Origin: Gimesia chilikensis
GTDB taxonomy: Bacteria > Planctomycetota > Planctomycetia > Planctomycetales > Planctomycetaceae
NCBI RefSeq assembly: GCF_007744075.1
Contig: NZ_CP036266.1
Location: forward strand, 5,255,748-5,319,747
Length of the DNA: 64,000 nt
Direction: 5' to 3'
In this document: one piece after another, positions 11,720-15,455 of the stretch
How the letters are laid out: the number at the start of each line of letters is the position of its first letter
How positions within the stretch are numbered: position 1 is the first letter of the stretch
The notes under the pieces: generated by a model
What the model saw: the letters and a program-made list of their open reading frames with translations, nothing else
Told to the model about the DNA's origin: nothing
Database searches by the model: none
Position numbers and translations under genes: made by a program

Positions 11720-12733
<1,014 letters not shown>

Positions 12734-13298
12734 ACTGACTCTCCTTTAAGAATAAGAATAGTGATTATTGAGATGATAAAATCAGTCTCTCTCACAACAC
12801 GCAGTATCGTTTCTCTCTCAGATGGAAATGAAAGGACATCTGATTGAATGAGAGTATAAATCGTTGCTCAGTACGCTCGGTTAACATCAGTTCAAAACTG
12901 ATGTCGCTCGTAGTTAGAATTGAGTTAGATTCCGTTACCGGAAATTTAAATGAATGGAACCCCTGAAAACGGGGAGGAGATGCGAAAATCCAAACGGATT
13001 ATTAATGGAAATTAAATAAATCAACACTCTCCGATCCGATTTTAATCGTAGTTTTATAAAATTGTCAAACAAGATATTTCGATGTTACGACATTTCGAAA
13101 TAAGTAAGAATCCTTAATAATAAACAGGATTTCTAAGGTAAATTGACAAGGCCCTACGCAGTTGTGGCGATACAGATGTGAGACTGAGACCTGTAGAATT
13201 CCTGCATCGTTAGAAATACCCGCTGCATAACATTATGAATGACATTACTTCCGAACTCTTTACTGTTTTAACAGTAACTCACCAACGAATCGCGCTTC
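12734..13298. other. AT-rich intergenic region
   Basis: This 565-base gap lies between divergently transcribed genes. It contains no credible coding frame. The section around 13020-13140 is strikingly AT-rich. A TTGACA at about 13143 has no convincing -10 element at normal spacing, so I assign no promoter. Confidence 0.6.
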
Positions 13299-14372
13299 AT
13301 GTCACCACTCAATCATTATGACTTCATCATCGTTGGCCAGGGGCTCGCAGGCACAGCGCTCGGCTGGACGCTGCAGCAACGCGGCTATCAAACCTTGATC
13401 ATTGATCGTGGTGAAGAGATCACGTCCTCGAAAATTGCAGCCGGTTTGATCACGCCCATAACGGGACTGCGACTGGTGGTCTCCTGGCGACTGGAAGAAT
13501 TCCTGCCTTGCGCAATCCGCTTCTATCGAGAGATTGAATCACTCACCGATTCCCGTTTTCTCGAACTGAAACCGATGCTGAGACTATTCGCTTCTGAACA
13601 GGAGCAGGAACAGTACCAGCAACGATCCCAGACACATTTTCCGGAACTGGTTTCCATTCCCGAGCCCCTGGCGAACGAAGCTGAATTCGATGTGTCACAG
13701 GGGGGATTTGAAATGCAGAGTGGAGGAAAACTGGATGTCCCCACTTACCTGGAAGCTTCACGAGAGTGGTTTCAAAAACAAAACTGTTTTTTGAAAGCAG
13801 ACATCGATCCTCGCCAGGATCTGGAATGGGAAGCAGACCAGCTCCAGATCAACCGTCTGGGAGTGAGTGCCGACAAAATCATTTTCTGCCAGGGGATCCA
13901 GGCGCGGCGCAATCCCTGGTTTGAAAAAGTGCCTTTTGAGGGCGTCAAAGGAGAAATCCTGACTTTGAAAATTCCAGGCCTGACAGAGCGACGCGTGGTC
14001 AACCGGGGAGTCTGGCTCGCGCACTGGCAGGACGACCTGTATCGTGCCGGCTCAACTTATGATCGGGAACACCTCGACTGCGAACCCACGGTTGCCGGCC
14101 GAAAAGAAATCATGCAGCGTCTGACCGAATTTCTGAAAGTTCCGTTTGAAGTTGTCGAGCATCGGGCCGCGGTCCGTCCGGTCATTCACGGACGACTGCC
14201 TGTCTTGGGACTGCATCCGGAAAACCCGTGCGTCGGATTCTTCAACGGTTTTGCCTCGAAAGGGAGTCTGCAAACCCCCTGGATGGCAGCCCATTTTGCC
14301 GATGTACTGGAAGACAAAGCGACTCTGGAAAAACAACTGGACCTCAGCCGTAAGCTCAAACCAAAATCATGA
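13299..14372 (+). CDS. FAD-dependent oxidoreductase of the DAO family, MnmC(o)-like
   Basis: The 357-residue protein begins with a Rossmann FAD-binding motif (DFIIVGQGLAGTALG, residues 8-22) and the acidic end of beta-2 (LIIDRG). It continues as a D-amino-acid-oxidase fold with AAGLITPITGLR (about 48-59), a region like the substrate site of glycine oxidase and the MnmC oxidase domain. The C-terminal FAD motif is GRLPVLGLHPEN...FFNGFASKGSLQTPW. The stop overlaps the next start as ATGA, so it is translationally coupled to an MnmM-type methyltransferase gene. That pairing suggests it oxidises carboxymethylaminomethyl-uridine in tRNA to aminomethyl-uridine. The family is certain, the tRNA role is inference. 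Confidence 0.85.
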   Translation: MSPLNHYDFIIVGQGLAGTALGWTLQQRGYQTLIIDRGEEITSSKIAAGLITPITGLRLVVSWRLEEFLPCAIRFYREIESLTDSRFLELKPMLRLFASEQEQEQYQQRSQTHFPELVSIPEPLANEAEFDVSQGGFEMQSGGKLDVPTYLEASREWFQKQNCFLKADIDPRQDLEWEADQLQINRLGVSADKIIFCQGIQARRNPWFEKVPFEGVKGEILTLKIPGLTERRVVNRGVWLAHWQDDLYRAGSTYDREHLDCEPTVAGRKEIMQRLTEFLKVPFEVVEHRAAVRPVIHGRLPVLGLHPENPCVGFFNGFASKGSLQTPWMAAHFADVLEDKATLEKQLDLSRKLKPKS

Positions 14373-14938
14373 CACGTTTAACCGACCAGGCACACGCACG
14401 CATCTCTGATATTCTCCGCGCCGGTGAAACCGCCATCGACGCCACTGCGGGGAACGGGCACGACACCTGTTTTCTCTGTCAGACCGTTGGTCCCACGGGG
14501 CACGTGTATGCAATCGACATTCAAGAGTCGGCACTGGAGCAGACAGCCGCACAACTCGCGGAGGCGGACTGCTTTCATTGTGAGCTGATCTGCTGTGATC
14601 ACAGTCTACTGGCAGAGATCGTTCCGGCTGAACACCAGGGCGCAACGGGGGCGATCATGTTTAACCTGGGCTACCTGCCCGGGGGTGATCACAGCCTGAT
14701 TACGCAGGAGGCGACTACAGTAAAAGCGCTGGACGCGGCGATCGATTACCTGCGTCCCGGAGGAATTCTGACGATCCTCGCGTATCCGGGACATCCTGGC
14801 GGGGAAGCAGAAACCGGTGCCATTGTAGAATGGATGAACCAGCTACCTGCCAGCGAATTCAAAACGGAAACGATCCTGGCGCGTTCGTCTGCGCCCACCG
14901 CACCGCGTCTGTTGATTGTCACCAGGCAGGAATCCTGA
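14369..14938 (+). CDS. mnmM: MnmM/YtqB-type SAM methyltransferase (putative tRNA U34 modification)
   Basis: The 189-residue protein is a class I SAM methyltransferase of the rRNA_methylase (YtqB) family. It shows the SAM motif AIDATAGNGHDTCFL (residues 22-36), an acidic loop in AIDIQESAL, and the hallmark FNLGYLPGGDHSLIT (about 98-112). Members of this family, named MnmM, were shown in Bacillus subtilis and plants to methylate nm5s2U34 of tRNA to mnm5s2U. It follows the FAD oxidase gene with an ATGA overlap, fitting a two-step pathway. The length is normal for the family. Confidence 0.85.
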   Translation: MTRLTDQAHARISDILRAGETAIDATAGNGHDTCFLCQTVGPTGHVYAIDIQESALEQTAAQLAEADCFHCELICCDHSLLAEIVPAEHQGATGAIMFNLGYLPGGDHSLITQEATTVKALDAAIDYLRPGGILTILAYPGHPGGEAETGAIVEWMNQLPASEFKTETILARSSAPTAPRLLIVTRQES

Positions 14939-14945
14939 GACAGAA

Positions 14946-15188
14946 TTATTCCTCTTCAGAGGAATCCTCGTGCGATTGCGAAGACTCACGGATTTCGTCA
15001 ATGATCTGACGGGCCCGATCCACGTTCGAGGAGACCACATCGACCTTAATCTCAAAAATACCGGTCATCGCAGCCTGATTTTCATTCTCGAGCAGACAGC
15101 GAATGCCTTCCCCTTCCAGCGTCATCTTGATGAATTCCGCTTCCATCACATTCGTCGTTGAATAGACAGTTTCCAGACTATCACTCAT
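14946..15188 (-). CDS. DUF2007 domain protein
   Basis: An 80-residue protein of the DUF2007 (putative signal transducing protein) family. It has the typical opening ETVYSTTNVMEAEFIKMTLEGEG, read in two parts as ETVYSTTN and MEAEFIKMTLEGEGI, then a ferredoxin-like half-domain ending DRARQIIDEIRES and an acidic, Ser-rich tail. Such proteins are small and cytoplasmic, and their ligand is unknown. The start at 15188 has AAGGA ten bases before it; an upstream ATG at 15248 would add 20 residues without family support. It converges on the methyltransferase gene with a gap of seven bases. Confidence 0.8.
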   Translation of the reverse strand: MSDSLETVYSTTNVMEAEFIKMTLEGEGIRCLLENENQAAMTGIFEIKVDVVSSNVDRARQIIDEIRESSQSHEDSSEEE

Positions 15189-15455
15189 GGTATTGTGTTC
15201 CTTAGACAAACCGTCCCTGAAGAGTGAACTCATCATGGAGCGCTTCACAGTCAGTCAAATAATGGTCTCGTACCCTGTAAGGCTAACCTGATTCAGTGTT
15301 AACATCAATATTAAATACACAGGATACGCTTCAGATCGCCGATGGTCGGCTGGAATTCATCAGCAGGGTGAATGGAATTGAATCTCAGGGTCACCGCCTG
15401 CTATTCTGTAAGGGTGCTCTGATTATCATCGCCATCTAACAAGGGATCTCTCCCC

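Follow-up and report, generated by a model that had tools for sequence, protein, structure and literature searches.

Two overlapping genes of the planctomycete Gimesia chilikensis, one for an FAD protein and the other for the methyltransferase MnmM, appear to form a single unit that carries out the final two steps of mnm5(s2)U34 synthesis, in effect a rebuilt MnmC. We give this reading, in which the activity of the oxidase is a predicted one, a probability of about 0.86. The original prediction, a dedicated two-step unit using a methyltransferase of another family, is upheld by the absence of the MnmC2 domain (PF05430), the presence of MnmM in 14/14 carriers of the oxidase, the recurrence of the pairing across phyla and the existence of fusions.

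In Escherichia coli, the MnmC1 oxidase and the MnmC2 methyltransferase (PF05430) are combined in one protein, MnmC, with the oxidase last, while Bacillus subtilis has MnmL (YtqA, a radical SAM enzyme) and MnmM (YtqB) in one operon. The pair described here resembles E. coli MnmC in the two reactions proposed for it, in an oxidase that belongs to the same superfamily and has certain local motifs in common with it, and in that its relatives are fused in several cases. It differs in using a methyltransferase of another family, in having an oxidase below the MnmC1 cut-off, and in consisting of two overlapping genes in G. chilikensis, the fusions among its relatives having the oxidase first and not last as in E. 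coli. With B. subtilis it shares the methyltransferase family, MnmM, that of the Gram-positive route, but for its first step an FAD oxidase is proposed where B. subtilis has a radical SAM enzyme, and no MnmL above the cut-off accompanies it.

The gene pair in Gimesia chilikensis

Both open reading frames and the ATGA overlap between them, as originally described, are present in the window (the whole stretch of 64,000 nucleotides that was analysed, part of a genome of one contig and 8.29 Mb):

13299-14372, + strand: FAD protein of the DAO superfamily, proposed cmnm5U34 to nm5U34 oxidase (ORF of 357 aa; Pfam DAO, 7.9e-25)
14369-14938, + strand: MnmM (YtqB family), proposed nm5U34 to mnm5U34 SAM methyltransferase (ORF of 189 aa; NF053511, 183.5 bits)
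14369-14372, + strand: ATGA overlap of the MnmM ATG start and the oxidase TGA stop (read from the sequence)

Translation of the two genes is probably coupled through this overlap. The likely neighbours in the ORF list (11720-12733 and 14946-15248) are both on the opposite strand, so that the pair looks like an isolated unit. A perfect 8-nt inverted repeat with a 2-nt spacer (TTACTGTT/AACAGTAA, window positions 13260-13277) lies ca. 20 bases 5' of the oxidase start codon and is a possible candidate operator.

The methyltransferase and the gene complement of the genome

By profile search the second protein is a member of the MnmM family (183.5 bits against a curated NF053511 cut-off of 135), it matches Pfam PF06962 at 1.4e-37, and 4pon and 8h0s are solved relatives (E ca. 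1e-35). Residues D32, N99, Y102, Y139, G141 and H142 were invariant in the alignment of 19/19 planctomycete sequences, and the gap-free alignment of the window protein with 8h0s, at a constant offset of 2, places them at Asp34, Asn101, Tyr104, Tyr141, Gly143 and His144 of B. subtilis MnmM. All six are connected with U33/U34 binding or catalysis by Cho et al. (2023; PMC9976899), and our check covers this set; K11, K110, Q163 and Q176 are further tRNA contacts. As the substrate demonstrated for the B. subtilis enzyme is nm5s2U34, which it methylates (PMC9976899), we propose that the window protein would likewise act as an nm5(s2)U34 tRNA methyltransferase.

PF05430 had no match in the whole genome and thus no chain combines it with an oxidase, as a bifunctional MnmC would; the predicted absence of mnmC was checked in this way and agrees. 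MnmL (TIGR01212) was also lacking above the cut-off genome-wide, the best score being 28.9 bits against 180. MnmG is present (857.8 bits), and a separate true ThiO is encoded elsewhere (G000:C1:2850609, 311.8 bits), which leaves no need for the FAD protein in that role.

The FAD protein: profiles, fold and phylogeny

The FAD protein scored nearly the same against the ThiO model TIGR02352 (78.8 bits, cut-off 250.8) and the MnmC1 model TIGR03197 (78.3 bits, cut-off 174.2). All 79 members of the wider family alignment matched both models, with best values of 4.6e-32 (ThiO) and 4.5e-26 (MnmC1). The label "MnmC(o)/glycine-oxidase-like" first given to this protein is accurate as a description and does not extend to membership, both scores lying under their cut-offs; formal MnmC1 membership is not claimed here. 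The AlphaFold2 model (pLDDT 96.4, pTM 0.94) likewise matched glycine oxidase (Z 36.7, Foldseek rank 1) and MnmC (Z 33.5, rank 20). The structural comparison with MnmC(o) that had been suggested thus yielded the match but did not discriminate, glycine oxidase being slightly higher, and with both enzymes matching strongly the fold cannot identify the substrate.

Among the positions of the E. coli MnmC oxidase domain listed as more than 98% conserved or bonding FAD (PMC3648344), G271, G273, G287, S304, G518, R567, G578 and G619 (E. coli MnmC numbering) are kept in the window protein. The same eight are also kept in the four ThiO rows shown, so that they speak for a working flavin site and not for kinship, and we dropped them as proof of relationship to MnmC1. 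At R653 of E. coli MnmC the alignment has a gap in all 10 family rows, in 1/3 MnmC1 rows and in 4/4 ThiO rows shown. Other positions side with MnmC1: A17 (35/35 family rows, 5/5 MnmC1 and 0/16 ThiO, which has I in 16/16), an aromatic residue at 254 (34/35, 5/5 and 0/16, respectively) and the motif at 320-322, where the family has [STA][KR]G and 5/5 MnmC1 have GSRG, as against a GHxR type in 16/16 ThiO. P294 sides with ThiO (35/35 family, 16/16 ThiO, 0/5 MnmC1). R293 is invariant in both family alignments; it aligns with R567 of E. coli MnmC and, in B. subtilis ThiO, with an arginine that we take to be the one binding the substrate carboxylate.

In a tree of 116 rows, the 94 members of the FAD family came out together (SH-aLRT 99), with the 16 ThiO and 5 MnmC1 sequences outside. 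An outgroup tree of 62 rows (35/94 family members, with other DAO enzymes as outgroups) joined the family to MnmC1 at 95/88, with long branches and with bootstraps that carried a warning of not having settled. The AU test rejected neither the grouping of the family with ThiO (p 0.188) nor that of ThiO with MnmC1 (p 0.257), and in both trees the family sits on a long branch (1.9-2.0 changes per column). The FAD protein belongs to a separate family, which we favour as the sister of MnmC1. The original idea of a non-homologous replacement for MnmC holds at most for the methyltransferase half, the oxidase being a homologue of MnmC(o) and its favoured sister (95/88, although the AU test rejects neither alternative).

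Several of these results could also be accommodated by a small-molecule oxidase acting on glycine, sarcosine or a D-amino acid (a second ThiO or a comparable enzyme) that has no more than its operon in common with MnmM. Glycine oxidases are the top fold matches, the two profiles, ThiO and MnmC1, give the window protein equal scores, ThiO has the proposed carboxylate arginine and P294 too, and a ThiO sister position was not rejected. However, the family is a clade apart from the 16 ThiO and without their GHxR motif, the genome already has a true ThiO, and such hitch-hiking would leave unexplained both the linkage in four phyla, by record label, with repeated fusion (among the best 80 loci, see below) and the presence of one or the other nm5U methyltransferase family (MnmM or PF05430) in the genomes, all of which makes this explanation unlikely. 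The narrower proposal that the protein is the glycine oxidase ThiO was rejected: it is like ThiO in fold (Z 36.7), flavin-site residues and the arginine aligned at the active site, but it is below the ThiO cut-off, lacks GHxR and is encoded in a genome with a separate ThiO. The outgroup tree leans towards this rejection as well, while the AU test does not settle it.

Proposed pathway

Our preferred reading is that the FAD protein acts on tRNA. MnmEG (of which MnmG was found in the genome) would produce cmnm5U34, and the FAD protein would oxidise the C-alpha-N bond of its glycine-derived arm, with R293 gripping the carboxylate. Hydrolysis of the imine would release the carboxymethyl arm and leave nm5U34, whose amine MnmM would methylate to give mnm5U34. 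For the oxidase reaction we rely on its homology to MnmC1, the company of MnmM (whose substrate in B. subtilis is nm5s2U34) and the fusions; the substrate, the role of R293 and the use of the pair on tRNA in G. chilikensis are what we infer from the comparisons above.

Linkage and fusion show functional coupling and not the exact substrate, and the long branch of the family (1.9-2.0 changes per column) would also agree with an enzyme that oxidises a different modified nucleoside, or the wobble base in a different form, with MnmM methylating the product. Against this, B. subtilis MnmM methylates nm5s2U34 (PMC9976899), which is the product of a cmnm5U oxidase, and MnmG is present to supply cmnm5U, and we find this version quite improbable. 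Under the cmnm5U34 oxidase reading, the FAD protein is not strictly required, because MnmEG with ammonium can make nm5U directly (PMC9976899), so that genomes with an orphan MnmM (G071 and G107, described below) do not contradict it.

Survey of Planctomycetota genomes

We surveyed 294 Planctomycetota genomes with the thresholds E<=1e-15 for the oxidase, the family cut-off for MnmM, E<=1e-30 for MnmL (TIGR01212) and E<=1e-6 for PF05430. MnmM was found in 19/294 and the oxidase in 14/294, all within these 19; TIGR01212 was found in 96/294 and PF05430 in 33/294. Among the 14 oxidase carriers TIGR01212 was present in 0/14 and PF05430 in 0/14. The co-occurrence of oxidase and MnmM that had been anticipated for the phylum is therefore complete (14/14) in the sampled family. 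NCBIfam names TIGR01212 as MnmL/YtqA, a tRNA modification radical SAM protein, and its presence says less for an MnmL function than its absence says against one, because the model also matches E. coli, an MnmC holder that served as control.

If genomes were independent, the overlap of the oxidase with MnmM would have a probability of 4e-20 and its lack of overlap with MnmL one of 0.003, figures that overstate the evidence because all 14 carriers belong to one family; the count amounts to little more than a single evolutionary event with some losses. This family has 17 sampled genomes, including that of the window, and three of them (G087, G105, G257) are without both genes. The two genes are linked in 12/14 carriers, with a -4 overlap in seven (the window genome included), -13 in three, -1 or -7 in one, and a single frame in G283; they are far apart in G024 and G274.

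The other five MnmM genomes, all of them without PF05430 (0/5), divide into three with TIGR01212 (G017, G058, G259) and two without it (G071, G107). The latter, both of family f56 (loci L011 and L006, respectively), have a true MnmM without oxidase (E<=1e-15), MnmL or PF05430. In them, either MnmEG makes nm5U directly or another oxidase exists.

In other families, a few Planctomycetota genomes (L058-L061, in G035, G079, G282 and G040) carry long ORFs in which an FAD domain comes after an MnmC2 domain, and by their domain content these are identified as ordinary bifunctional MnmC.

The pair in other phyla

When GTDB genomes were scanned with the family alignment, at least 594 stretches matched, at least 558 of them encoding relatives, of which the best 80 were kept. 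Among these best 80 of at least 558 loci, 35 have MnmM on the same strand no more than 400 bases downstream (one of them, L083, a partial match of 81 bits) and 7 have it fused with the oxidase in one frame (L071, L072, L074, L077, L078, L105, L146). It is further downstream in 4 and just upstream on the same strand in one (L136), and the remaining 33 have no MnmM in the flank examined, one of them being cut off by a contig edge. The 47 loci with MnmM comprise 20 from Planctomycetota, 13 from Verrucomicrobiota, 9 from Alphaproteobacteria, 4 from Gammaproteobacteria and one from Omnitrophota, by labels taken from database records, single ones of which may be wrong because most of the 47 loci are from MAGs; the 47 also include Persicirhabdus sediminis (L104) and a complete chromosome from Rhizobiales (L115). 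Beyond the host, the pairing turns up again in several phyla, and a number of lineages have it as a fusion.

In the fusions the oxidase domain comes first. On the oxidase tree the fusion label (G283 included) requires 6 changes, possibly gains as well as losses. Oxidase and MnmM distances in 57 same-locus pairs are correlated (r 0.68; 0/2000 permutations as high), which is expected of any two co-inherited genes. A structure model of one natural fusion (L105), built with 7 sequences in the alignment, reached a pTM of 0.57 and was left unused.

Taken together, the linkage in 12/14 family carriers and the 42/80 best loci with MnmM downstream or fused show that the pairing is beyond chance. That all sampled Planctomycetota carriers are in one family would suit a chance or lineage-inherited neighbourhood with no shared pathway, but adjacency or fusion in Planctomycetota, Verrucomicrobiota, Alpha- and Gammaproteobacteria (among the best 80 loci), the three members of the carrier family without both genes together (G087, G105, G257) and above all the fusions, which largely refute it, make this hardly credible.

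Genomes without an adjacent MnmM

Fifty genomes behind the best 80 loci were searched, namely those of the 33 loci without MnmM in the flank, that of L083 and 16 with MnmM. MnmM was over the cut-off in 24 of the 50 and PF05430 was found in 15, and in no case did both occur together (0/50). MnmL was over the cut-off in two, G332, which has the oxidase and MnmL with neither methyltransferase found, and G351, which has the oxidase-MnmM pair plus MnmL, so that the exclusion between MnmL and the pair is not absolute.

In the genomes of the 33 loci, MnmM is present elsewhere in 8, and G315 has two MnmM fragments below the cut-off. PF05430 was found in 15, 14 of them Bacteroidota and the other a bacterium that groups with them. 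In 9/33 (also 9/50 overall) neither MnmM nor PF05430 was detected at the thresholds used, genome completeness not being given. The pairing had been expected in Bacteroidetes too, and here the expectation failed: the 18 Bacteroidota-labelled loci among the best 80 have no MnmM in the flank examined. Their genomes have PF05430 in 14 cases, MnmM elsewhere in one (G314) and neither in three. In Bacteroidota no MnmC2 was found within the flanks examined around the oxidase, and the association of the two in this phylum is weaker evidence than the pairing with MnmM. In Cho et al. (2023) organisms with an orphan mnmC(m), e.g. Bacteroides and alpha-proteobacteria, are considered likely to encode an MnmC(o)-like enzyme too (PMC9976899).

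A probably modular ending of the mnm5U pathway

We think it rather probable that the FAD family supplies the MnmC(o)-like enzyme that has been missing from several Gram-negative phyla, serving whichever nm5U34 methyltransferase is present, i.e. MnmM in Planctomycetota, Verrucomicrobiota and some Proteobacteria and stand-alone MnmC2 in Bacteroidota, in a pathway whose ending is modular. Cho et al. (2023; PMC9976899) state that it was unknown which MnmC(o)-like enzyme serves organisms with MnmM, and a review table has since assigned such a role to MnmL (PMC12548931). The FAD family is a fitting candidate for this role wherever an MnmM genome lacks MnmL, and it may be one too for Bacteroidota whose MnmC2 is an orphan.

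If the modular reading is true, different first and second enzymes recombine via operon formation and gene fusion, and the oxidase-MnmM fusions are a second bifunctional MnmC that arose separately from that of E. coli; they also offer natural two-domain proteins for study. The assignment would give a precise and easily tested function to a family of oxidoreductases whose window member is below every NCBIfam cut-off shown. Wobble-uridine modification affects decoding, and for this reason the assignment would also correct tRNA-modification predictions in several phyla. A literature search, covering the titles and abstract openings listed, gave PMC9976899 as the one paper on MnmM itself and found no description of an oxidase-MnmM pair; priority is uncertain, since the 2024 paper of Jaroch et al. 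on MnmL/MnmM (J Bacteriol), whose abstract reportedly mentions fusion proteins and alternate arrangements, was outside its scope.

Four combinations are now exemplified: E. coli joins MnmC1 to MnmC2, B. subtilis has MnmL together with MnmM, the unit described here has the FAD oxidase and MnmM, and the planctomycete genome G036 has an MnmL-MnmC2 fusion. This fusion is a 661-aa ORF (L219, positions 613-2598 of the minus strand of G036:C33) with an MnmL/YtqA radical SAM domain and an MnmC2-type methyltransferase domain. It scores 259 bits with TIGR01212 and 40.1 bits with PF05430, both above cut-off, and 67.4 bits with the MnmC2 model NF033855, below its cut-off of 136. By eye, no second enzyme was recognised in the long open frames around the MnmL matches of G239 and G246. 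The MnmL match at G208:C87:10795-11658 is interrupted by one in-frame TGA, which may reflect a sequencing error, decay or recoding.
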